This document shows positions 2,445-64,000 of a stretch of DNA of 64,000 nucleotides, in pieces. The stretch is from Pseudomonadota bacterium (GTDB taxonomy: Bacteria > Pseudomonadota > Alphaproteobacteria > Rhodospirillales > Magnetospirillaceae). A program made the translations under genes and the position numbers. The notes beneath the pieces were generated by a model. It saw nothing but the letters and a program-made list of their open reading frames with translations, did no database searches and was not told where the DNA came from. The DNA is taken from the NCBI GenBank assembly GCA_021847015.1, contig JAJZVW010000007.1:24942-88941 (forward strand), written 5' to 3'. The stretch's first letter is position 1, and every line of letters starts with the position of its first letter.

Positions 2445-4250
2445 ATGAAGGGGAATGGAACCGGGGAAGAACATCCCCACGAACCGCCGTCGCAAGGGCG
2501 TCCCCAGAGTTTCATTCTCCAATTCATCCGTCTCGCCGGGCCGTATTGGAACTCCGAGGAAAAATGGAAAACGCGAGGTCTTCTCGCGTTGCTCGTGGCC
2601 CTGACCGTCGTTCAGATTTTCGTCCAGGTCCGGATCAACCTCTGGAGCGCCAAGCTTTTCGACGCCCTGGAACAGAGATCCATGGCGAATTTCTTTGTGC
2701 AGATCGGCGTCTTCGTCGTCATCCTGCTGACGGGCATGACCGTCACCGCGGTCCACCTGTTCCTCAAACGGTGGATCCAACTGGACTGGCGGCGCTGGCT
2801 GACCCGCAGGACGCTCGACCGCTGGATGGCGGCCGGCCATCAATTCCAGGTCAACCACATACCCGGTGAACACGACAACCCCGACGGGCGCATCGCCGAA
2901 GACGTCCGCGTCACCACCGAGGCGGCCATCGACCTTGGCCATTCCCTGCTGTACTGCATCCTGCTGCTGGCCAGTTTCGTCAAGATCTTGTGGTCGCTGT
3001 CGGGACCCCTGGAGTTCGATGTGGGCGCCCTGCGCCTGTCCATTCCCGGCCACATGGTCTGGGTGGCGCTGATCTATTCCTCCACGGCGACGTCCCTGGC
3101 CCTGCTGGTGGGCTGGCCCCTGATCCGGGTGACCGACAAGCGCCAGAGCGCCGAGGCCAATTTCCGCTTCGGCCTGGTGCGCGGACGCGAGAACGCCGAG
3201 GCCATCGCGCTGCTGCACGGCGAAGCCGACGAGAACCGGCGGCTGGGCGGCCTGTTCCAGGGGATCGAGGTGGCGTGGCTGCGCCAGACCTGGGCGCTGA
3301 CGCGCCTGTTCCTGTTCACCACCGGCTATTCCATCCTGTCCACCGCCTTTCCCATCCTGATCGCCGCGCCGCGGTTCATCTCCGGCGCCATCACCCTGGG
3401 CGCCCTGATGCAGACGGCCCAGGCGTTCCAGCAATTGGCGTCGGCCCTGTCGTGGCCGGTGGACAATTTGCAACGGGGCGCGGAGTGGCGGGCCTCGGTC
3501 GAGCGGGTGCTGGCGCTGTCCCACGCGCTGGAGGATCTGGAGCGGCGGTCCTCGCCCTTCGGGGAAAACGCCATCGAGGTACGGAAGGCCGGCGGACCGA
3601 ACCTGACGTTCCACGACCTGTGCATCGCCAACCCCGACGGCGGCATCGTCTTCACGGACTTCAACGCCGAGATCGCCCCCGGCGAGCGGGTGCTGATTTC
3701 GGGCGATCCCATCGCCGCCATCAAGCTGTTCAAGGTGGTGGCCGGCCTCTGGCCGTGGGGGCGCGGACGGGTGGAACTGCCCACCGACGCGACCATCTTC
3801 TTCATGCCGCAGCGGCCTTACCTGCCGATCGGCCGGCTGCGCAGCGCGGTCAGCTACCCCACCGGTCCCGACGCGTTCGACAACGCCCAACTGTGCGCCG
3901 CCCTGCAACGGGTCGGCCTGTTCCACCTCTGCCCCCGCCTGGACGAGACCCAGACCTGGGAACAGGTGCTGACGGTGGGCGAACAGCAGCGCATCGGCTT
4001 CACGCGCATGCTGCTTCACCGCCCCAACTGGATATTCATCGAGGAGGCGACCGACGCCCTCGATACCGAGGGCGAGGAGGAGATGATGCAGCTTCTGCGG
4101 GACGACTTCCCCGACGCCACCGTGCTGACCATCGGCTACCACGCCACCCTCGATGCCTATCACGGCCGCAGGCTGGTGCCGCTCGACCGCCGCGCCACGC
4201 CGCGCACGCCCAAGCGGCGGGCGATGGCGAAACAGCCCGTCTCCCGCTGA
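2445..4250 (+). CDS. SbmA/BacA-like ABC transporter, fused permease-ATPase, altered Walker A
   Basis: This is a half-transporter of the SbmA/BacA/YddA type: an N-terminal membrane domain (ABC_membrane_2-like; helices near residues 45-75, 85-110, 165-190, 200-225 and 305-340), then an ABC ATPase domain from about residue 380. The signature LTVGEQQRIGFTRMLLHRP and the switch sequence are recognisable, and AGLWPWGRG is typical. The expected GxxGxGKS/T is instead GDPIAAIKLF, with no P-loop glycines and no Lys-Ser/Thr, and the Walker B end reads IEEATDALD instead of DEATSALD. Members are known or thought to import peptides or modified fatty acids; ATP use here is doubtful. The ATG at 2445 is preferred because the upstream in-frame extension is low-complexity. 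Confidence 0.85.
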   Translation: MKGNGTGEEHPHEPPSQGRPQSFILQFIRLAGPYWNSEEKWKTRGLLALLVALTVVQIFVQVRINLWSAKLFDALEQRSMANFFVQIGVFVVILLTGMTVTAVHLFLKRWIQLDWRRWLTRRTLDRWMAAGHQFQVNHIPGEHDNPDGRIAEDVRVTTEAAIDLGHSLLYCILLLASFVKILWSLSGPLEFDVGALRLSIPGHMVWVALIYSSTATSLALLVGWPLIRVTDKRQSAEANFRFGLVRGRENAEAIALLHGEADENRRLGGLFQGIEVAWLRQTWALTRLFLFTTGYSILSTAFPILIAAPRFISGAITLGALMQTAQAFQQLASALSWPVDNLQRGAEWRASVERVLALSHALEDLERRSSPFGENAIEVRKAGGPNLTFHDLCIANPDGGIVFTDFNAEIAPGERVLISGDPIAAIKLFKVVAGLWPWGRGRVELPTDATIFFMPQRPYLPIGRLRSAVSYPTGPDAFDNAQLCAALQRVGLFHLCPRLDETQTWEQVLTVGEQQRIGFTRMLLHRPNWIFIEEATDALDTEGEEEMMQLLRDDFPDATVLTIGYHATLDAYHGRRLVPLDRRATPRTPKRRAMAKQPVSR

Positions 4251-51633: not shown

Positions 51634-54600
51634 TTACGCAGCCGGCGCAGGCGCGCGCTCCCCCGCTTCCCGGGCGGCATTCTCGTCGCCGTAGATGATA
51701 GCCTGGACGGCCCGCTCTATGTCCTCATCCGACAGAAACGGCGCTTGCGCGAAAACGATGCCAGGCTCTCCATTGAGCCGAGCCGCCAAATGACCAAGCC
51801 CCAACAGCGACTCCGCGCCTTTCACGCCAAGCGCGATCTCCGAGGTGCCGACGCTGGCAACCTTCAAGATCAGGCGGTTCCCCAGATTGTCGCGCAACTG
51901 CATCGGCATGACGTTCACGTCAGGGCGTTGCGCGGCGAAGATGAGGTGAATGCCCGCCGCGCGGGCTTTCACGCCCAATCGCTGCACGTTGGCCGCCACG
52001 GCTTCCTTGTAGTCTTCCGTCAGCATCCATTCCGCGAATTCGTCATGCACCAGGAACAGCATGGGCAAGCGCTCACCCGGCGGCGCCGCGACATTGAAGG
52101 CTCGCAGATCGCGCACGCCGCTCGCGCGGAAGAGCTCGTAACGGCGTTCCATCTCCCCGACAAGACGTTCCAGTTCCTCCTTCGCCCGTGTTTGATCGAC
52201 CACGATGCCGCCCGGGATGTGAGGCAGCCGTTCGACCGCGGCGTAGTCCACCCCCATCTTGGGATCGATCAGGATAATCTGCGCCAAGGCACTCGAGTTG
52301 GTGGCCGCAATATCGAGGATGAGGCCCTGGATCAGCACCGACTTGCCGCTTCCGGTGGCGCCTGCGACCAGGGTATGCGGCTCGTGCTGCTGGGCGCCTC
52401 CGAAAGCCGAACCGAGATTAAGATACAGAACTTCTCCATCGAGCTCGCGCAAGCCGACCACGAACGACGTGTTCAAGCCCGCGGCGTTGCGATTCAATTC
52501 ACGCCGTGCCCACACGTCCCACAAGGACACCGTTTGGCGCTGCGGCCGCGCCACCGCGACGACGATCTCGCCCGGCAAGGGCGAGATCGCAACCAGGCGA
52601 AGGCCGTGGGTCGTCAGGAGGGCCGACTGCTTACCCTCGATGTCCTCCACCCGAAGCCTGTCGGATCCCATGAAGCGGATGAGCGCCGCATTGGGGGTGA
52701 GACGGGTGCCTAGGATCTTCGCCTGCAATCCGTATCCCAACAAAGCCGTCCGCAGCTTCTGCGCGGTGCCATCGAGCCAAGCCTCCTCGGCCTCCGATAC
52801 CGAAGACCGTTGCCGTGTCCGCGCCTCGATCAACGCGGCGATATCTGTGTCCTGCTCCGGCCCACTCGCCCCAGCGGCTTGCACGATGGGTCGCGGCCGC
52901 TCGCCAGAAGCAGGCTGGACCTCAATGGACTCGACCTCCGCGACGGCCGGCGCCCCCGGCTTCGGCGTGCTCCGCGGAGCGCGCGTTTGCTCCGTTGCCG
53001 CCGCAGCGGCAGATGCGTCCACAACGTCGGGCTGGCTAGTCCAGTTCACCCGGGGCGCAGGACTGCGGAACTCGGTGTCCTCCCAGGGATGCTGCTCGCC
53101 TAGTTCCCGCCGCACCCCCGTCAGAGCCGTGCGCGCTTCGTAGGCCTTGAGAAGATTGCGCACCTCGTCGCGAGTAAAGACTTCTTGCAACCCGTGCGGC
53201 ACGTCTGCGATCGGCTCCTGCTCGCCCGACGCGGCCGGCTCGGCCAACCCTGAAACGAAAATGTGCGAGTAGCCGCGCAGATCGATCGTGGTGACGCCCT
53301 GGCGGATGCCGTCCCGCACCGCTTCCAACGCGTCCGACTGACCCAACGCGGTGGTCCCGTCGAGCAGCAGATCCGCGATCCGCGACAGCCACAAATCCCG
53401 ATCCAATCGTCCCGGATCGCCGAACAGCGCTTCCTCGATACGCTGAACAGTATGTCGAAGTTGCTGTTTGGAGGTCCGCCGCGCCTCGGCAGCCCCATCG
53501 ATGCCGACATATTTGGCTTCGGTCACGACTGCGCGCAATGTCGTATGCCCGTCGACATCGCGCCCGACGCTCAGCGCCAGGATGTCGGCGATCCCTTGCT
53601 CGCGTTGGCCGAGCCATTCGGCGTAATCGTCCAGCAGGAACCAGGCGATCGTGGCCTGCGCACCGAGCTCCTCAGCGACCATTGCCCTGCTCAACACCAG
53701 CCCGATGAGTTCGCCCGCCGACACACCGCGCTTGGCCGCACGCAGCACGATGTCGCCGGAAATGCTGCAGGCATCGTCGATCATGCGTTGCGCCAGCGCC
53801 GAGAGCCGGTCATCGGCGAGCCCCAAGCTCAATTCGGCAAGCCGCCGCCGCACTAGGACTTGCAGGATGCGCAGCTCCGATGTGGACGAGACAATCATGT
53901 TGCGACCGTGCGTTCGCTGGCGGCGATAGCGGATCACTTTAATGCCCTGCGCGGCGAGCTGGCGCTTGTCGAGGAGGTCGTCGTAGGTCGCGACCCATTC
54001 CGCCAACCCATGCACTTCGTCGAACATCGCCTTCAGGCCCTGGTCCTGAAAGGATATCTGGCGCGCCGGAAGCACATGCTCGCCTCGGCTGTGCGACTGC
54101 CGCCGAACCACGTCCGCCACGGCATCGAGATAAGCCCACCCCGCGTCCGGCTGCCTGGGACAGGCGAGGTAATTGGTCGCCTTCAGTTCGTCTTCCGCCG
54201 TCACACGACGATAGGACCACCGCGCCGGCACGTGATCGAGCAGACTTGGCATCGTTGCGGACGCGGGAACCGAGAACCACGCCTCCTTGGCCTGGCGGGA
54301 GACCACATCGTGCAGGAAGGCGACATCGACGCTGCGGTGATCGACCGAAGGCGTCGCGCCTCCGTCGAGCATGACGCCGATCCGCAACTTCGACATGAAA
54401 TTGCGCGAGGTCTCGCTAACGACGAGCGCGTCGGGGTCGGCCTCCGAGCCCTCGAGCAACTCCCTGTAGATGCGATTGAGCTTGGGGCGGTCGCGGTGCC
54501 GGACGAGCACGTTGCAGTGCATCTCATCCTCGTCGTGGACCGAGCCGAGCGCGTTGACGGTGGCGAACGGCAAACCCGCTGCGTCGCAATTATAGAGCAT

Positions 54601-56979
54601 GATGCTGAGGTTGGAGCGCTCGTGCGGCTGCAAATCGAGGTAACGCTCCAACAGAACGCGAATCTGGCCTGCGGCCTCCTGGGGATCCACGTCCGTGGCC
54701 GCTTCAGCGGGATCGCGCACCGGGCGTTCCATCAGGCTGTAGTCGTTGACCGTGCTCGTCTCCGTCAGCAAGACCGGCTCGGCGCCGTGATAACCGACTG
54801 CAATCTCGGGATAGAACGGATGGGCCAGCTCCGCTCGCAAATCTGCAAAGAACAGGCGAGAATCTCCAAAGTTAATTTGTTCGGCGGCGAGCAAGTGCGC
54901 GGCTAGGCCGGCGACACTGCGTGCCTTCACAGCGCTCGCGGCCAATCGCAAGGGGTGCCAGGGCGCGATGATCGCCGACGGCGCGCCGCCGGTGATCGCG
55001 ACACATCCGAGCGACAGAACAGGCTCCCAGAGCTCCTGCCGGTTGAGATCGCCGGGCGCGTGCTGCGCAAGCGCGCGCAGGAGCGCGCCATAATGTTCGG
55101 CCTGATTCAAGAGAGCGACCTCGGCCAAGCCGTTTTGTCGCCACCCTTCGAGCGCAGCCGCGTACGCTGTGGCAAAGCCATCCCAGGCGGCGCCAACGGC
55201 AGCCGCGGCTTCTACGCCCAATCGGCCATTGGCCGCCGCCTTGAGCGCCTTCGGAAATTGCCGGCCGACATCGTAAGCGGGGTCCGATTTTGCAATCAGC
55301 GATCCGGAATCCTGCCTATAAGCGGGCTGCAGCGTTGCCACGTCGCTCAACGAGACGGACTGGAGTGAGCCCTTTCGGCTAACCGGCTGGCGCGCGACGC
55401 TCGACCGCGTCAGCGGACGTTTGATGAGGCGGTCGAGATCGTCGCGTAGCTCCAGCCCGATCCCATCTGGCCGTCCCAGCCAGATGAGCTGCACGGTAGT
55501 CCGGTCAGCCAAGGCGCCATCGCCGAGCTTCAAGGTGATATCGAGCTTGACCTGAAGACTGGTCCGCGACACCGAGACGTTGCGCTTGTACTTCTTGCGT
55601 CGCGACGCTGCCTCGAGCAGCGCCTCGTATTCGAAAAGATGCGACGTGTCCCACTTGACCGCGCCGCCCATCAGCGCGGGCAATCCGCGGTAGCGCACCG
55701 CGAACGCCGTCGCGACATCGGCATTCAGTTCGAGCCATTGCGCCTTGGTCCGCCGCGTGGTTCTGATCTCAAGCGATCGGACAGCGCTAAGCGCGCCGGC
55801 TTGGCCATATAGCCGTTCGAGCGCGCGCAGCAGGCCTTCAAGAAGGTCCGTGCACTCGATCGGACGGCCGAAGATGAAGCGCTCCCACTTCGCACGAAGC
55901 CCGCGGTCCCGCCCGAGCTCTTCGCGATGGGCCTCGAAAAAATCGCGGTCGTCGTCTCGGGGCTCCTTGTGCGATTTCGATTCCTTGAGCTGCCTCAGAT
56001 AATCTTTATCGACGTCGCTGAGACGGTCAGGCAGCTCAAACTCGAAGAACTGAATCGTCTCCTCGGCCAAGCTCGTCTTCTTCCGCCGCAGACCGGAGAA
56101 GATCTGAAGGATCCCATCTGATTCCCATTCGAGCTCGGCGAGCGCGGCCGCTTCGTCCCGCCAGCTCGGCGGAGCGTTGATGAACGCCTCGATGGTCGCG
56201 TGGGCGGCCGGCGGGATATCGTCGCGCACCGCCTCGAATTGGCTTCGTAGCTCCTCCGCTTCGATCACCTGTCGCGGCGGTCTCTGCTTCAGCAACAGCG
56301 GCCGGCGATCAGTGACGAGCTTGTCGAAAAGCTTTTTCCAACGCGCTGCCAGCGCCTGGTCTTTTGCGCGAATGGCCAGGAAGTACCCGGAATCGCGCGG
56401 CAATTGCAGTGCCGGAAGTGCCCACCCAAGCGCCTCGAGCAGCGGCTTCGATTCATCCGCGATCGAACGGCGCGTGAGCTCCACATAGTTTGAGACCTGA
56501 TGCAGCGTCCAATCTTCGGCGGCGGCAAGGCCGCGAAGCGCCGCTTGCCAAATCTCGAGTTGGCTTTCGGGCAAACCAAGCCCCACGGCAGCAGCCTCGA
56601 CCCACAGCCGCGGCTCCTCAGTGAGCTGCTTGGCGCCCAGCAGTGTCACGTCCTGCAGAGACGCACCCTGATCGTCATCACTATTAGCGAGCAGCAGGGC
56701 TGGACGATCGCACTCCGCATGGCGCAGCGCGACCGTGCGTTCGTCAGTGATCACCGCCGGAGGCAAGTCGAAGGCCGCTACGAGGTCGCGTGGCACCGCG
56801 ATTTTGATTTTCTGCGCGGTCTCACTGTCGAGCAAGAGCGCCTGCACCACGGCCACAACCTGCTGCCCGGTCAGCCGATCCAGCATGAAACGTGCGAGCC
56901 CGTCGCCTTCCGAGGCATTTGCCAGACGCTCGCGCAGTGACGCTGCGCCGACGGCCCCCAATAGTTCCGAGGCGCTCAA
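51634..56979 (-). CDS. sspH: SspH-like restriction protein: putative nuclease plus FtsK/HerA translocase
   Basis: A 1781-residue protein. The C-terminal motor has HTLVAGATGSGKSVLIQGLI (Walker A Lys about 1546), DPKMGVDYAAVERLP and LPMLFLVHDEFAEWM (Walker B), with AAQRPDVNVMPMQLRDNLGN, as in FtsK/HerA. A candidate PD-(D/E)xK nuclease lies before it: IADILAL (Asp about 1132) and VVTEAKYVG (Glu1154-x-Lys1156). The N-terminal 900 residues have no domain I can name. It overlaps sspG by 4 bp (ATGA). It likely translocates and cuts DNA lacking phosphorothioates, as proposed for SspFGH/DptFGH. Letter assignment follows gene order and size. Confidence 0.8.
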   Translation of the reverse strand: MSASELLGAVGAASLRERLANASEGDGLARFMLDRLTGQQVVAVVQALLLDSETAQKIKIAVPRDLVAAFDLPPAVITDERTVALRHAECDRPALLLANSDDDQGASLQDVTLLGAKQLTEEPRLWVEAAAVGLGLPESQLEIWQAALRGLAAAEDWTLHQVSNYVELTRRSIADESKPLLEALGWALPALQLPRDSGYFLAIRAKDQALAARWKKLFDKLVTDRRPLLLKQRPPRQVIEAEELRSQFEAVRDDIPPAAHATIEAFINAPPSWRDEAAALAELEWESDGILQIFSGLRRKKTSLAEETIQFFEFELPDRLSDVDKDYLRQLKESKSHKEPRDDDRDFFEAHREELGRDRGLRAKWERFIFGRPIECTDLLEGLLRALERLYGQAGALSAVRSLEIRTTRRTKAQWLELNADVATAFAVRYRGLPALMGGAVKWDTSHLFEYEALLEAASRRKKYKRNVSVSRTSLQVKLDITLKLGDGALADRTTVQLIWLGRPDGIGLELRDDLDRLIKRPLTRSSVARQPVSRKGSLQSVSLSDVATLQPAYRQDSGSLIAKSDPAYDVGRQFPKALKAAANGRLGVEAAAAVGAAWDGFATAYAAALEGWRQNGLAEVALLNQAEHYGALLRALAQHAPGDLNRQELWEPVLSLGCVAITGGAPSAIIAPWHPLRLAASAVKARSVAGLAAHLLAAEQINFGDSRLFFADLRAELAHPFYPEIAVGYHGAEPVLLTETSTVNDYSLMERPVRDPAEAATDVDPQEAAGQIRVLLERYLDLQPHERSNLSIMLYNCDAAGLPFATVNALGSVHDEDEMHCNVLVRHRDRPKLNRIYRELLEGSEADPDALVVSETSRNFMSKLRIGVMLDGGATPSVDHRSVDVAFLHDVVSRQAKEAWFSVPASATMPSLLDHVPARWSYRRVTAEDELKATNYLACPRQPDAGWAYLDAVADVVRRQSHSRGEHVLPARQISFQDQGLKAMFDEVHGLAEWVATYDDLLDKRQLAAQGIKVIRYRRQRTHGRNMIVSSTSELRILQVLVRRRLAELSLGLADDRLSALAQRMIDDACSISGDIVLRAAKRGVSAGELIGLVLSRAMVAEELGAQATIAWFLLDDYAEWLGQREQGIADILALSVGRDVDGHTTLRAVVTEAKYVGIDGAAEARRTSKQQLRHTVQRIEEALFGDPGRLDRDLWLSRIADLLLDGTTALGQSDALEAVRDGIRQGVTTIDLRGYSHIFVSGLAEPAASGEQEPIADVPHGLQEVFTRDEVRNLLKAYEARTALTGVRRELGEQHPWEDTEFRSPAPRVNWTSQPDVVDASAAAAATEQTRAPRSTPKPGAPAVAEVESIEVQPASGERPRPIVQAAGASGPEQDTDIAALIEARTRQRSSVSEAEEAWLDGTAQKLRTALLGYGLQAKILGTRLTPNAALIRFMGSDRLRVEDIEGKQSALLTTHGLRLVAISPLPGEIVVAVARPQRQTVSLWDVWARRELNRNAAGLNTSFVVGLRELDGEVLYLNLGSAFGGAQQHEPHTLVAGATGSGKSVLIQGLILDIAATNSSALAQIILIDPKMGVDYAAVERLPHIPGGIVVDQTRAKEELERLVGEMERRYELFRASGVRDLRAFNVAAPPGERLPMLFLVHDEFAEWMLTEDYKEAVAANVQRLGVKARAAGIHLIFAAQRPDVNVMPMQLRDNLGNRLILKVASVGTSEIALGVKGAESLLGLGHLAARLNGEPGIVFAQAPFLSDEDIERAVQAIIYGDENAAREAGERAPAPAA

Positions 56980-58520
56980 GGTTGCGCACTCCTCTGGAAC
57001 GGGTTCTCGACATAGGCGCAGGAATCCGACAGCCGCTTTAGCAAGCCAAGGCTGGCCAGCCGCTCCTCCAGACGTCGCGCATTGTCCGAAAAATCCTCCT
57101 GATCGGCACTGCCCGCATCAATGAATCGCCGCGCCTGCTGGTCGCCGATCACCAATCCGTAGCGGTCATGGAGGAGAACGAGGAAGTCTTTGAACTCCAA
57201 TCGCCGCTCGACGCAGCATACGACCAACGTCTTCAGAAGCCGGTCCGTCGGCGCGTAGCGCACCCGTCGGCTAGCCCGTCGAGACGACAGCCCGATCAGG
57301 CGCGCCCAGGTCGCGTGGACCTTGCCGACATGTTGCTTGTGCCGCACGATCGCGCGCCGAACGAGCTCTTCCAGCAATTCGTCGGGTTGCCCCTGCGCTT
57401 CGTCGGCGTCGTCGAGATCCGGCCAATCGAAGGTCTTGGATAGAAGTTCTGCGACGCTCGGTCCCGGCTCATCAGATTGCAGCGCCGCACGCCATTCCGG
57501 CGTCGCAGCAATCTCCCGAATGAACCGTTCGAGCGCCTGTTGAGGCAGGGCATTGTTTCCCTGGAAGGAGTCCGCCGACAGGTCGCGCACCACCGAGCGT
57601 TTCGGCGAGACGATCTCGCAGACCATGGAGATGGGATCCGGTTGCGCCAGGACCTCAGCCGAGCGTTGAAGCTGATACAGAATGAGGTGAAGTCCGGTCA
57701 TCGTGACGATATGCGGAATCGCGTCGTAGGCCGGGATTTGCAGATCCAGGATGGCGATCCAATCCTCGGCCAACCGATCGAAAGTGGGGTGCGAGGCGCA
57801 TGGCAAGTAAGCGCCGGCTCGTTCCTGCCGCGCGAACTGGACGTCGTCTTGCAGCGCTCTGATCAGCCCGTCGTAGGGCGCATCAACCTTCAGTATCCGT
57901 CTTTCCAGACGTTCGCGAAGTTCGGCCGCTCTCCGACTCCTGCAAAGCATGAGATAGAGAATCTCGCCGGTGCGCGCGAAGAACCGCCGGTCCGTGGCGA
58001 CGCCGGTCGCCGTGACACTGACGTCCTCATAGAGCGCGCTCGTCCCGAACGGAAAGACGAACTTGGAACTCCAGCGCTTATTGCTGCCGCCTTCGATCGC
58101 GGAGCTCTGTAGGAAAGAGACTACCGAGGCAAAGTCTTGGAAGGTCTCGAAGCGATCCCGCAGATAGGAAAAGTCTGGTCTGTCCAATCCGCCCGCGTTT
58201 TCCGTCATCAATGGCAGCCAAGTCGCCCACATCGCCTCGTCGGACTGGTCCGAGGTAAGTACAGTCGTTATGTGCGGGTTGTTGAAGAGGAGATTGCGCA
58301 GGCGAAGCTGAGTTTGCGGCTTGTAGGACAATTCGTTCAGGCGCGCCTCGGTCAGGGCGCGTGTCTGGCCATTCTCCGCATGAAGAACGCACAAGAATTC
58401 GAGCAAGGTCAGCCAGGGCGATTGCTCGTCATGGAGACGATGACCCCAGATCGCCTCGTCGATCCACATTTCCGGGCCCGTGCGATCTTCATGCCCGAAT
58501 GGCTTCGCCAAGACTTCCAT
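56976..58520 (-). CDS. sspG: SspG-like restriction protein
   Basis: A 514-residue protein, no Walker motif or nuclease site. Segments such as LTLLEFLCVLHAENGQTRAL, the hydrophobic HIVTMTGLHLILYQLQRSA and a C-terminal winged-helix-like end (KDFLVLLHDRYGLVIGDQQA) suggest a DNA-binding or scaffolding part. Size and position match DptG/SspG of phosphorothioation restriction modules; no direct sequence signature was recognised. It starts 5 bp after sspF and overlaps sspH. Confidence 0.7.
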   Translation of the reverse strand: MEVLAKPFGHEDRTGPEMWIDEAIWGHRLHDEQSPWLTLLEFLCVLHAENGQTRALTEARLNELSYKPQTQLRLRNLLFNNPHITTVLTSDQSDEAMWATWLPLMTENAGGLDRPDFSYLRDRFETFQDFASVVSFLQSSAIEGGSNKRWSSKFVFPFGTSALYEDVSVTATGVATDRRFFARTGEILYLMLCRSRRAAELRERLERRILKVDAPYDGLIRALQDDVQFARQERAGAYLPCASHPTFDRLAEDWIAILDLQIPAYDAIPHIVTMTGLHLILYQLQRSAEVLAQPDPISMVCEIVSPKRSVVRDLSADSFQGNNALPQQALERFIREIAATPEWRAALQSDEPGPSVAELLSKTFDWPDLDDADEAQGQPDELLEELVRRAIVRHKQHVGKVHATWARLIGLSSRRASRRVRYAPTDRLLKTLVVCCVERRLEFKDFLVLLHDRYGLVIGDQQARRFIDAGSADQEDFSDNARRLEERLASLGLLKRLSDSCAYVENPFQRSAQP

Positions 58521-58525
58521 CGCGG

Positions 58526-60358
58526 TCAGGTCCTCACCGTGACGCGCCGCGGGGACGCGCGGCCATCACTCCCGAGCTCGATGAACCGCAGGACCAGTTC
58601 CCCGTCAGAGGCCCGCGCGTCCTCATCAAGCACACGGCGCCGCTCCGTCGCACTCAAAAGCTTGGCCTTGAACGCCAGGAGATCTTCGTGGCACTCGAGC
58701 GAAAAGCTGCTTGGCAGAGCGCCTTCAGCGACCCGCCCCAAGAACTCGAACCGCGTGGGCGTCAACGTCAATCCGACCGGACCCGGGTCGTCGCCGCGCG
58801 ACAGACGGACACTCAGAGCGATGCCGCCTCGTGGGCTCGGCGCCAGCACTGCTTCCTCGCCTCCCTGGCGCGGGACTGAAATCAGCTCGTCAAGCAACGG
58901 GCTGGTCTTCGATTGGGAGTGGCTGCCCGAAGTGGCAAGAACCAGTTCGTCTTGGTTCTGTACGAGCATACCGGTGAAGACGCGATTGAGGCCGCGCATG
59001 ATCATCGGCATGACCCGGCGCGGGAGAGCTGTGCCGTTCTTCAGGCGCGCGGCGACATCGAGGTACAGACCGCCATAGCGGAAGACCGTCAAATCCCAGA
59101 GGTCGAATTCGCTCTCGCGCTGTTCGGGAAGCACGAAGAACATCCGCTGGCGCTGGGCGCGCAGGCGCGGCAGGAACTCCTCCCGCGCACCGGCATCGCT
59201 TCCCTCGAGATAGGAGCGTTGCGCTCGCGTATAGGTGACCGTGCCGCCATAGACCGGGTCGTTGAGCACGAGATCGCGATAGGGGGCTTCCAGCGCGGGA
59301 TCGTCCGCCCCGTAGACCAACAAATTGTCCACGCGGTTGCTGGTCTCGCCGCCGATGCCGAAGGCGTTGAACTTGCGAAAGAGATCCGACTTTTCGGCGC
59401 GCCGCGGCTTCAGGTTCTCGCCAAAGATATTGCGATAGACGCTTGCCTGGTCGAGCGATCCGCTCGCCAAGAGGTCGGGAACATCCGAACATGACATCAA
59501 GCCATCAGGCGCCTCCGGATGTCCCAGAAGAATATTGGCCACGAGCGCCAGAAGCTGGCGGACAGGGAAGTGGACGCCATTCTGTTCGCTCAACTCAACC
59601 AGCGCCGTCAGACGCCGCTGGAGAAGTCCCGAATCGGCCTCGCCCTGGATGCGGGTGCGATTCTCCCGGATCGGACAGATTTGCGTATTCCGAATGGGAC
59701 ATGCCTCGCATTGGTCCCAGCCGGGATGGCCCGTCATCGCCGCGATGATCGTCCGGATCATCTGCGATGCGGGCGCCTGGCTCAAATCGCGCAGATTGAG
59801 CCGGACCTCGGGGTCGGGATTTTCGCCCGTGACTAGGAGCTCCTCGACCGCGCGCACCATGGTCTGGAGCTCTGCCGTTTGCGGGGCGGCCTTCAGCTTC
59901 TCCAGGAGCTGTCCGTGGTTGGCCGCGATCAGATAGATCCGCTCCGGGGCAAGACACGTTACGTCTCGGGCCATGTCGGACAGCAGTGACGCGCTCTCTT
60001 CCGCGCGTAGCTCGCTCAAGTCCTTGACGACCACAAGCTCGCGAGGGCCGAGCTGGCACCTTTGGATCTTGTCCCCGGTACTCCAGGTGGCGTCGGAACC
60101 ACCAAGCCGAACCCAGGCTTCTCGGCAATGATAGGTTTTTCCGTCCCCCGCCGTGCCGGTCAGGATTTCCGAGCGCGGGGAGTCCGAACGCAGGTTGTCA
60201 AGGAGCTGGTCCAGAAATTGTGCTGGTAAAACAATAGGTTCGATCCGGTGGCGCCGCAACGCCCGTTGGATCGACTCGTCGTACATATTATCATTGGTCG
60301 GGATCGGACCGTAGTTCCGAAGGAACCTGACCCAACGACTTGCCCCGGATGCCGACAT
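58526..60358 (-). CDS. sspF: SspF-like restriction ATPase
   Basis: A 610-residue P-loop protein. ILTGTAGDGKTYHCREAW is Walker A (Lys74); LVVVKDLSEL and APERIYLIAANHG may be Walker B and sensor. A cysteine group, CEACPIRNTQICPI near residues 215-230, could bind zinc. Layout and size match DptF/SspF. ATG 60358 has GGGAGGGGGA, better than the GTG at 60373. It is first of the sspF-G-H operon, transcribed toward sspBCD. Confidence 0.78.
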   Translation of the reverse strand: MSASGASRWVRFLRNYGPIPTNDNMYDESIQRALRRHRIEPIVLPAQFLDQLLDNLRSDSPRSEILTGTAGDGKTYHCREAWVRLGGSDATWSTGDKIQRCQLGPRELVVVKDLSELRAEESASLLSDMARDVTCLAPERIYLIAANHGQLLEKLKAAPQTAELQTMVRAVEELLVTGENPDPEVRLNLRDLSQAPASQMIRTIIAAMTGHPGWDQCEACPIRNTQICPIRENRTRIQGEADSGLLQRRLTALVELSEQNGVHFPVRQLLALVANILLGHPEAPDGLMSCSDVPDLLASGSLDQASVYRNIFGENLKPRRAEKSDLFRKFNAFGIGGETSNRVDNLLVYGADDPALEAPYRDLVLNDPVYGGTVTYTRAQRSYLEGSDAGAREEFLPRLRAQRQRMFFVLPEQRESEFDLWDLTVFRYGGLYLDVAARLKNGTALPRRVMPMIMRGLNRVFTGMLVQNQDELVLATSGSHSQSKTSPLLDELISVPRQGGEEAVLAPSPRGGIALSVRLSRGDDPGPVGLTLTPTRFEFLGRVAEGALPSSFSLECHEDLLAFKAKLLSATERRRVLDEDARASDGELVLRFIELGSDGRASPRRVTVRT

Positions 60359-60915
60359 TCCCCCTCCCGTCACACATTATCCGGCGCTCGTAAGGAGGGT
60401 CATCCTCGTCCTTGCAACCACCACCGCTTGAGTCGATTGTGGCATGATAGCATCATACTGCGCCAGAATGCTGCCAGAATGTCCCATGTCGACAGCCTCT
60501 TACCGCCTTATTGACGGCGATCTCGAGCTCTCAGATCAATCCGACGGCCAGGGGGCCTTCTGGCCTCACCGACATTTTCGCGGCGGATCTACCACGGTCA
60601 GCCCGATTCTTGACGGTTGCGATCGTTGGCCCGCCCTTCCGCTAGAAACCAACGCGCCAACGGCAGCGTCAGCGGAGTTTGCGCCCGTTTGCCATGTCGA
60701 TAGCTGGGCCGCGACTGTCCCGCGGATTGGGTGCCGGCGAATACCGCGCTGACACGAGCAAGTTCGAGGCTCGCGGCTCGCCGCCAGGCTTTGCTACGCC
60801 CACCGAGCGGACCCGGCCGCCGCCAAAGGCGCGGCTGTTACGTTACAGCTGAATCACATCTGCTCCCGCACGCGCCAATTATCGCGTTCCGCAAAAAGCC
60901 TGTAAGTTAGCTCTC
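60359..60915. other. Intergenic region between sspF and HEPN-like gene
   Basis: About 0.56 kb without a convincing gene. Short frames have no domain or ribosome site. It must hold divergent promoters for the sspFGH operon and the next gene, but none is clear enough to place. Confidence 0.5.
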
Positions 60916-61860: not shown

Positions 61861-62337
61861 CGGTTTTCAACAGCTTCGTTCCATCCCAACCCTGAGCATT
61901 GGCAACGAAAGAAGCTCTAGCCAATCAATTCGCGCCAGTCGCGCGCGCGAGCCGACCGGATACCGAAATGGTCGCGACAGAATTAGCTCCCAACCGGCAC
62001 TCACCCGAGCAACCGCATGAGTGCCTCAGATCGCTCGACGAACTTTCGGGCGTTTGTCTTCCACAGTGGTTCCAGGTTTTGCAGCTTCCAGCGCAGACCA
62101 GAGAGCTGTTCCACATGCGGCACGCCCAGCAAAGACCATTCGGGCTCCGCGATGACCGGTGACAGCAGAAACGCAACTTTGGATTCGGCGCCGCCATGTA
62201 GTCCAACTACGATGAATTGTACTATCCCAAATTGGGGGAAGGCCTTCCCCTGCGGCCGAGCCGTTTGTCTCGGCCGACCCCTTCTGCGGGGACACCCCGC
62301 AACGCCCCGAGAGTGAGAGTGCGGACGGGCTTTCCGT
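61861..62337. other. Intergenic region with a possible gene remnant
   Basis: About 0.48 kb between the HEPN-like gene and the leader of ardC. Apart from the remnant at 62001-62235, no gene, repeat or RNA was seen. Confidence 0.5.
62001..62235 (-). pseudogene. Possible 3' remnant of an unidentified gene
   Basis: A minus-strand frame of about 78 codons reads like real protein (VVGLHGGAESKVAFLLSPVI, then PHVEQLSGLRWKLQNLEPL and KFVERSEALMRLLG) and ends in a stop at 62001. No start codon or ribosome site lies in front, and the upstream part is antisense of ardC's leader. It may be the end of a gene lost during element assembly. I cannot name its family. Confidence 0.35.
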
Positions 62338-62377
62338 GACGGGTTGAGGGCTGGGAGAGAGGCTCCCGGCGCCCGTC
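62338..62377 (+). ncRNA. Structured leader RNA of ardC
   Basis: GACGGG (62338-62343) pairs with CCCGTC (62372-62377). Inside, CTGGGAG (62351-62357) pairs with CTCCCGG (62363-62369) around loop AGAGG. The same structure with compensatory changes precedes parB at 63463-63502. The start codon is 13 bases downstream behind GCGGAGACC. Confidence 0.65.
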
Positions 62378-62390
62378 GCGGAGACCCGCG

Positions 62391-63344
62391 ATGCCCAGAC
62401 ACGCCGCTCGCGCTCGTTCCGATTCCGACCGGACGAGCCTTTATGACGAAATCACCACGAAGATCATCACCGAGCTGGAGGCCGGCCGCGTGCCCTGGGT
62501 CCAGCCCTGGGGAACGGCGGCGGCGAAAGCGCCGCTGGCCATGCCAAAGAACGCCAGCACCGGTCGGTTTTATTCCGGGATCAACGTGCTCATCCTCTGG
62601 GGTTCCGTGATCGAGCACGGTTTCCCGGTCCAGGGCTGGGTCACCTTCCGCCAGGCCCTTTCGCTCGGCGGCAATGTCCGCAAGGGCGAGCATGGCACCA
62701 CCGTCGTCTACGCCGACCGCTTTATTCCCGACGACGAGAAGAAACGGGCGCGAGAGACCGGCGAGGAAGCGCAAGCCATCCCGTTCCTCAAGCGCTTCAC
62801 CGTCTTCAACCTGGCGCAATGCGAAGGCCTGCCGGAGAATCTGGTGGTCGCGGCACCACCACCGGAGCCGGGGCTCATCGAGCCCAAAGTCGAGGCGCTG
62901 ATCAAAGCCACTGGCATCGATTTCCGCATCGGCGGCAGCCGGGCCTTCTACATGCCCGCGGACGACTATGTGCAGGTCCCGCCGCCACAAGCTTATTTCG
63001 AGCCGATCAACTGGCACCGCACGGCGCTTCACGAACTTGGTCACGCCAGCGGCGCCCAGCACCGGCTCAATCGTGATCTCTCCGGCTCTTTCGGCTCGAA
63101 GAAGTACGCTTTCGAAGAGCTGATTGCCGAGATGAATGCCGCGTTTTGTTGCGCCTGGCTCGGCATCGTGCCGACGGTGCGGCACGCCGATTATATCGGC
63201 TCCTGGCTCGAGGTGCTGCGCGAGGACAACCGCGCCATCGTCCGCGCGGCGTCGCAGGCGAGCAAGGCTGCGGACTTCCTCCTCGGGTTTCTTCCTGGAG
63301 ATGAGGCGCAGGCCTCCACCGCTGATAAGCGGGAGGCCGCGTGA
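62391..63344 (+). CDS. ardC: ArdC-family antirestriction protein
   Basis: A 317-residue ArdC-like protein that protects incoming plasmid DNA from restriction. The N-terminal ssDNA-binding domain has SLYDEITTKIITELEAGRVPWVQPW and RFYSGINVLILW. The zincin domain has HRTALHELGHASGAQHRL with HELGH and a later Glu in FEELIAEMNAAF. Length is usual. The ATG at 62391 follows a GGAGA site in the leader. With parB it forms the plasmid-type part of the island, and such proteins help the element enter new hosts. Confidence 0.93.
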   Translation: MPRHAARARSDSDRTSLYDEITTKIITELEAGRVPWVQPWGTAAAKAPLAMPKNASTGRFYSGINVLILWGSVIEHGFPVQGWVTFRQALSLGGNVRKGEHGTTVVYADRFIPDDEKKRARETGEEAQAIPFLKRFTVFNLAQCEGLPENLVVAAPPPEPGLIEPKVEALIKATGIDFRIGGSRAFYMPADDYVQVPPPQAYFEPINWHRTALHELGHASGAQHRLNRDLSGSFGSKKYAFEELIAEMNAAFCCAWLGIVPTVRHADYIGSWLEVLREDNRAIVRAASQASKAADFLLGFLPGDEAQASTADKREAA

Positions 63345-63462
63345 TGCGCTTCCGTCGCGGTAGTCAGCAAGCCGTCACGCAAGGCCGGATTTGTGCGGAT
63401 GCGCATCTCCGGCTCGGCGGGTCTGCAGCCTTCCAGAGGAAGAGGGCTGCGCCGGTCTTCGT

Positions 63463-63502
63463 GACGGGTTGGAAGCCGAGAGAGAGTCTTTCGGCGCCCG
63501 TC
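63463..63502 (+). ncRNA. Structured leader RNA of parB
   Basis: GACGGG (63463-63468) pairs with CCCGTC (63497-63502). Inside, CCGAGAG (63476-63482) pairs with CTTTCGG (63488-63494) with loop AGAGT. The linkers (7 and 2 bases) are identical in length to the ardC leader. The start codon is 15 bases downstream. Confidence 0.65.
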
Positions 63503-63517
63503 GCGGAGACCATCCCG

Positions 63518-64000
63518 ATGGCACCTGCTGTTCAGAAGATCACCCTCTCGTCGTCGCGCGACATCCCCCTTAACAAGCTTGTTCTGTCCCAGTCGAACGT
63601 CCGCCGGGTGAAGGCCGGCGTCTCGATCGAGGAGCTGGCCGAGGACATCGCCCGGCGCACGCTCCTGCAAAGCCTCAACGTCCGGCCGGTGCTCGATGCC
63701 GATGGCGCCGAGACCGGCATGTTCGAGGTTCCGGCCGGCGGCCGGCGCTACCGGGCGCTTCAGCTTCTCGTCAAACAGAAGCGTCTCGGCAAGACCGCGC
63801 CCGTGCCCTGCGTCGTGCGCGATCCCGGCGTCGACGTTTCCGCCGAGGAAGACTCGTTGGCCGAGAACGTCCATCGCGCTTCGCTCCATCCACTGGACCA
63901 GTTCCGGGCATTTCAAGCATTGCGCCAGAAGGGCCAGTCCGAAGAAGAGATCGCCGCCGTCTTCTTCGTCGGCGTCAACGTGGTGAAGCAGCGGCTGCGT
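63518..64000 (+). CDS. parB: ParB/RepB-family partition protein (3' end outside window)
   Basis: The first 161 residues of a ParB/Spo0J-like protein. The CTP-binding N-terminal domain is visible: PLNKLVLSQSNVRRV, IEELAEDIARRTLLQSLNV, FEVPAGGRRYRAL and SLAENVHRASLHPLDQFRAF; the start of the HTH (EEIAAVFFVGVNVVKQRL) is the last thing seen. It is open at the window's end. On plasmids and integrative elements it binds centromere-like sites or acts as a regulator. No parA is seen in the window. The leader RNA precedes it. Confidence 0.9.
   Translation, partial: MAPAVQKITLSSSRDIPLNKLVLSQSNVRRVKAGVSIEELAEDIARRTLLQSLNVRPVLDADGAETGMFEVPAGGRRYRALQLLVKQKRLGKTAPVPCVVRDPGVDVSAEEDSLAENVHRASLHPLDQFRAFQALRQKGQSEEEIAAVFFVGVNVVKQRLR

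Follow-up and report, generated by a model that had tools for sequence, protein, structure and literature searches.

An ardC gene and a parB-like gene near the right end of the 64,000-nt stretch of DNA analysed here (the window) are each preceded by a hairpin of the same outline. The locus therefore raises the question of whether these two leaders are a true RNA structure that controls translation of plasmid-type genes, as an earlier note had proposed, or whether they are better explained as a DNA-level signal, a processing site or a passive damper.

The host element and the two leaders

The gene order of the element at the window is ArdC, ParB, helicase, toprim, DUF2493, DUF736, DUF2285, RepA and ParA, followed by a signal peptidase (S26), transglycosylase, relaxase, TraG and trb genes, with domains assigned partly by eye. 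The same order was found in annotated relatives and suggests a Tn4371-like / Rhizobiales backbone, a possible assignment that rests on gene order only, the ends and the integrase being outside the comparison. Because this backbone order is shared with annotated relatives, the host was taken to be a conjugative element; placing its oriT and transfer strand was tried, without success. On the minus strand, at 51634-60373 of the window, sspFGH-type genes were identified just upstream of ardC using PADLOC (bit scores: SspH 2412, SspG 722 and SspF 783), so that a DNA-modification-linked defence module adjoins the antirestriction gene. Beyond the right end of the window, the relaxase and traG genes are separated by a reverse-strand block (G000:C21:109040-112839) that resembles a mercury-resistance insertion, by eye and from predicted ORFs only.

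Coordinates of the leaders and their genes are given in Table 1. The earlier note had described the same outer stem, GACGGG/CCCGTC, with spacings of 7, 5 and 2 bases in both leaders, together with inner stems CTGGGAG/CTCCCGG (ardC) and CCGAGAG/CTTTCGG (parB). This description was confirmed by direct reading: the ardC leader runs GACGGG-TTGAGGG-CTGGGAG-AGAGG-CTCCCGG-CG-CCCGTC from 62338 and the parB leader GACGGG-TTGGAAG-CCGAGAG-AGAGT-CTTTCGG-CG-CCCGTC from 63463. The outer stem proved longer than described there, since it extends outward and takes in the GGAG of the ribosome-binding site, with the ATG following 7-10 nt behind this GGAG in both leaders. The covariation that had been inferred from the two copies held only in part. 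One inner pair is changed on both sides (G-C to A-U), but the other two differences between the leaders are one-sided and of the wobble type (U-G to C-G and G-C to G-U). With a single truly double-sided pair change, these two sequences are weak evidence by themselves; it is the relatives that show strong covariation.

Table 1. Positions of the leader features and downstream genes in the window
Feature	Position	Strand	Basis or remark
AGAGnnAGAG box 5' of ardC hairpin (AGAGTGAGAG)	62310..62319	+	sequence, fixed offset in relatives
ardC leader hairpin	62331..62384	+	fold z -4.5, model R1 92.9 bits, covariation
ardC outer stem	62331-62344/62371-62384
ardC 5-nt bulge	62345-62349
ardC inner stem	62350-62357/62363-62370
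ardC loop	62358-62362		AGAGG
Shine-Dalgarno GGAG of ardC	62380..62383	+	within outer-stem 3' arm (sequence)
ardC CDS, 317 aa, ArdcN + MPTase-PolyVal domains	62391..63344	+	ORF list; Pfam PF08401, PF18818
AGAGnnAGAG box 5' of parB hairpin (AGAGGAAGAG)	63435..63444	+	sequence, as for ardC
parB leader hairpin	63454..63511	+	fold z -5.1, model R1 74.7 bits
parB outer stem	63454-63469/63496-63511
parB bulge	63470-63474
parB inner stem	about 63475-63482/63488-63495
parB loop			AGAGT
Shine-Dalgarno GGAG of parB	63505..63508	+	within outer-stem 3' arm (sequence)
parB-like CDS (ParB_N domain), runs past window end	63518..64000	+	Pfam PF02195; complete gene seen in locus L122

A 47-nt joint pattern matched exactly the ardC and parB leaders in the window, against 0.00 matches in shuffles. 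The fold z values in Table 1 were obtained by folding stretches of 81 nt (ardC) and 86 nt (parB) against dinucleotide shuffles. In the scan of the window with covariance model R1 (29 sequences, 22 pairs), the next match after the two leaders reached 16.8 bits and was regarded as noise. Bases from -15 to -6 are unpaired with a mean probability of 0.003 for ardC and 0.10 for parB. Three further palindromes or hairpins lie in a row ahead of the ardC box, at about 62225-62307 (GGGGAAGGCCTTCCCC, CGGCCGAG...CTCGGCCG and TGCGGGG-ACA-CCCCGCA); this block also occurs elsewhere 5' of ardC and of some DUF932 genes and is absent 5' of parB.

Distribution and consensus of the leader family

All evidence for the leader family is comparative. 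The 17-nt 3' arm, which holds no start codon, served as an exact query against 84,980 species genomes. At least 119 loci were found, with 122 places among the matches listed. Within these listed matches, the upstream hairpin half was present at 71 of the 122 places; all 71 stand directly before an ArdC or ParB-like start, and every record that is labelled to class level or below is alphaproteobacterial. The first alignment is invariant in the 3' arm because its seeds were picked by the exact 3' arm, and wider sets do vary there. Matches of the covariance model end at the start codon by construction, unlike those of the first pattern scan, and E-values are rough owing to a short calibration.

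R1 leaders were detected in 22 of 289 genomes drawn over Alphaproteobacteria. A genome with leaders usually has one to four, and most of them are paired at distances of 500 to 3,000 bases. Leaders of a second model, R2, occurred in 34 of 398 genomes sampled across the phylum, all 34 of which belong to the window's own class. The outcome by which the proposal would have been refuted, namely a covariance model that hits only the two copies of the window, thus did not occur. The third copy that had been suggested to the right of the window is missing: neither the 19 kb of sequence inspected, which begin 1.1 kb left of the leaders, nor the genome as a whole contains it, while other elements carry 3-4 copies. 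Chance, or an artefact of having two copies, was rejected on the absence of the pattern from shuffles and the presence of leaders across many genomes.

With the ardC leader region as query against plasmids, 217 records matched. The distinct leader copies collected number 212, nearly all immediately 5' of a start codon; a handful are followed by no clear gene. In most cases the gene that follows encodes ArdC (ArdcN plus a zincin-like domain) or a ParB-like protein; further leader-bearing genes encode DUF932 (the name given in annotated plasmids), RadC, DUF2958, an AlpA-like regulator and uncharacterised plasmid proteins. Four weak matches (L192, L193, L053:6854 and L088:5116) were taken as false positives. 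Among the ArdC homologues of the 289 genomes, the leader is present at all nine full-length genes with at least 71% identity to the ArdC of the window; those at 60% identity and below are without it, as is one broken ArdC gene with fragments at 70-72%.

Several leader-bearing protein families have no Pfam/NCBIfam match. Two of them stand out, one of about 180-200 aa (L255, L118, L265, L076, L108, L077 and L044) and one of about 130 aa (L039, L123, L187 and L189), and these are candidate new establishment or anti-defence proteins. From L042:1203 onward, an ArdC frame continues after an apparent frameshift through the parB leader into ParB, giving a 969-aa frame that is probably a degenerate copy. 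A very small, non-conjugative plasmid of Sphingomonas parapaucimobilis (L286, 6.5 kb) carries an 87%-identical leader at about 3334-3418 with no annotated gene directly behind it.

No phage match for the leader was found, and most of the ArdC genes on IMG/VR contigs are only distantly related. A phage origin was rejected; the gene content of the lone IMG/VR contig with leaders (L123, three copies) looks like that of a conjugative element. That a leader was recently copied from gene to gene within an element was likewise rejected by comparison of leader distances, the median being 0.263 to the same gene type elsewhere versus 0.315 to the leader of the other gene at the same locus.

The family shares an order of AGAGnnAGAG box, about 15 nt, bulged hairpin and a start codon just behind the 3' arm. 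Box and hairpin together make a unit of about 80 nt, the bulged hairpin alone about 55 nt. The outer stem is near-invariant (GUGACGGG/CCCGUC), the inner stem covaries freely and the loop is of AGAGG type. The box lies at a fixed offset, 14-16 nt before CGTGACGG, in 143 of 200 non-redundant leaders and in none of two controls; the remaining 57 leaders lack it. Outer-stem letters, bulge, loop and unpaired bases are conserved across gene types beyond what pairing needs. The constancy of the unpaired letters and the box across gene families points, by inference, to a common binding factor.

Selection on the hairpin and weighing of explanations

Across 108 aligned copies, 94.3% of cells pair and double changes occur in 14 of the 22 pairs, with 155 double-change cells observed against 44 in shuffles. 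Because this alignment was fitted to the model, changes were also counted on protein trees of the downstream genes, where 27 compensatory events were found for ParB and 24 for ArdC. Controls in which partners were slid by 1-3 columns gave 3-6 events (ParB) and 0-3 events (ArdC), and random re-pairing of the same columns gave means of 2.8 and 1.7, respectively. Without any alignment, 92 non-redundant copies had a mean fold z of -4.1, and in 91 of these the sense strand folded more stably than the complementary strand (-39.1 vs -27.9 kcal/mol). On the sense strand, G-U pairs outnumber A-C mismatches by 396 to 35 (11:1), or by 183 to 34 when positions with mostly G-U pairing are excluded. The sense-strand bias and the G-U excess place the selected hairpin in the mRNA strand. 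The leader is therefore strongly supported, from sequence comparison, as a conserved RNA structure with compensatory changes.

In predicted folds, half or more of the GGAG is base-paired in 90 of the 92 copies, and hairpin stability ranges from -27 to -52 kcal/mol. The leaders of six genes of three annotated plasmids fold at -30 to -41 kcal/mol, the mean for 121 other genes being -19.6, and their ribosome sites have unpaired probabilities of 0.00-0.32 against a mean of 0.45; eight of the 121 ordinary genes have similarly buried sites. Sequestration of the Shine-Dalgarno inside the hairpin is strongly supported, and translational repression by this sequestration is the simplest function, for which there are no expression data. 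Wide conservation, independent compensatory changes, sense-strand bias and Shine-Dalgarno sequestration together support the proposal of a true RNA structure before plasmid-type genes. No intrinsic terminator or attenuator (a G+C-rich hairpin plus T run) was found in the leader region. A search for sigma-70-like promoters gave no site in 62200-63560, which does not exclude a non-consensus alphaproteobacterial promoter.

Several explanations at the level of DNA or of reading frames were weighed against these results. A single-stranded DNA promoter of the Frpo/ssi type, in which a hairpin of the transferred strand mimics a double-stranded promoter and permits leading-region transcription before the second strand is made, would suit the gene set (antirestriction, ParB) and the multiple hairpin copies per element, and Frpo is known ahead of such genes (PMC11541004). 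However, the template (antisense) strand is the one that folds worse in 91 of 92 copies, no -35/-10 match is present in the region, and the Shine-Dalgarno lies inside the stem at a normal distance from the ATG. Since neither a template-strand nor a duplex-DNA hairpin would give the G-U and sense-strand bias, the element is distinct from Frpo-type promoters, and we consider this explanation very unlikely. At the DNA level the inverted repeat reads as a palindrome, and a repressor does act at establishment promoters of p576-type plasmids (PMC8708921), as would be expected of a double-stranded operator bound by a repressor; a mobile palindrome belongs to the same class of explanation. Both are highly improbable given a strand-asymmetric wobble conservation, an asymmetric 5-nt bulge, copies that point one way directly 5' of the start codon, and leaders that track gene type and not element. 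Leader-peptide coupling or an N-terminally extended ParB is hardly credible: in the window, the parB leader is spanned by a frame that is open from 63341 (ORF list), but frames across the leader are not conserved, with stops in all three and a hairpin-ATG spacer that varies. No conserved upstream reading frame was found across leaders, and coupling is refuted as a general mechanism.

Two further explanations accept an RNA hairpin and differ in what it does. The leader could be processed by RNase III, the long stem being a cleavage site and the cut freeing the ribosome-binding site. In most copies an inner stem of 8 pairs stacks on an outer stem of roughly 14, and with a host enzyme as the trans factor, the occurrence on unrelated elements would be easy to understand. 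The conservation of the AGAG box, the loop and the outer-stem letters would be left unexplained, however, and there are no processing data, so that we regard RNase III processing as unlikely. Similarly doubtful is a constitutive translation damper or transcript stabiliser without any switch, where the hairpin merely sets low expression. It would account for the strong default occlusion and for the failure to find a trans factor, but not for the box at a fixed distance or for unpaired bases, bulge, loop and outer-stem letters that are conserved across genes beyond pairing.

The reading that we prefer, and consider likely, is that the two leaders belong to a new, widespread family of cis-regulatory mRNA leaders which repress establishment and antirestriction genes until opened in trans. 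The regulation, the trans factor and the recipient-cell timing are inferred, without expression, probing or conjugation data. By default, the hairpin would keep the ribosome off, and a quiet element would make little ArdC, ParB-like and other establishment proteins. A shared trans factor (an RNA-binding protein, perhaps encoded by the element, an sRNA or a processing enzyme such as RNase III, none of which has been identified) would read the box, bulge, loop and outer stem and open or cut the leader, turning on the whole gene set together. The switch would most plausibly be thrown at about the time when the element enters a new cell, the setting in which ArdC is needed. This timing rests on gene functions; ArdC of R388 is required in recipients and not in donors (PMC7213743). 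Against a switch stands the hairpin itself, which is so stable that the route to turning translation on stays obscure.

Known systems and meaning for establishment genes

Ribosomal-protein leaders, translational riboswitches and the phage lambda N leader are known to sequester a Shine-Dalgarno. They resemble the present family in a ribosome site held in a conserved hairpin, with a possible trans ligand or RNase III; the family differs from them in its genes, in its presence on conjugative elements and in the lack of an Rfam 15 match. The comparison with Rfam that the earlier note had called for gave no match to any of 4227 families in the window. Around the leaders, nothing related was found at E up to 10, and 14 further loci returned only a tRNA. 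No description of the leader family, nor any described function, was found in the open-licence literature, subscription papers being outside the search; within this scope, the second refuting outcome named in the earlier note, a motif with a function already on record, was not met with either. Within Rfam 15 and this literature, the family is so far uncatalogued.

The nearest likeness is to EGeRS1 of the pLS20 family of Bacillus plasmids, of which several structured, conserved copies lie directly 5' of the ribosome sites of establishment genes, ardC included; EGeRS1 has no known promoter inside and blocks read-through expression from upstream promoters, and its activating mechanism is unknown (PMC8708921). 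Both are structured, repeated and placed just upstream of establishment-gene ribosome sites. EGeRS1, however, spans 400-600 bp with many inverted repeats and belongs to low-G+C Gram-positive plasmids, whereas the leader is one bulged hairpin plus box, has its Shine-Dalgarno within the stem and fails the size criterion of EGeRS1. By analogy, the leader family may work like EGeRS1; no common origin is claimed and no direct sequence comparison was made. Frpo/ssi elements (F, ColIb-P9) are similar in being repeated hairpins before leading-region antirestriction genes (PMC11541004), but they are template-strand promoters with -35/-10, in contrast to the sense-strand selection and absent promoter match of the leaders. 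EGeRS2 and the Reg repressor of p576 are comparable in that the establishment genes of one element are controlled together, and differ in that a ribbon-helix-helix protein represses strong promoters at the DNA level (PMC8708921).

Control of establishment genes known so far is transcriptional, through single-stranded promoters and repressors. A compact leader conserved across rhizobia, methanotrophs, sphingomonads and roseobacters makes control at the level of translation directly testable, and offers a way to spot uncharacterised establishment or anti-defence genes by sequence. The leader family probably sets the time at which mobile DNA that has just arrived produces the proteins that protect it. 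That it forms a post-transcriptional regulon, in which one trans factor opens the leader shared by antirestriction, ParB-like, DUF932 and other genes and the whole protection set is translated on entry to a new cell, is possible and put forward tentatively; if true, such a regulon would add a third general mode to those by which establishment genes are timed.
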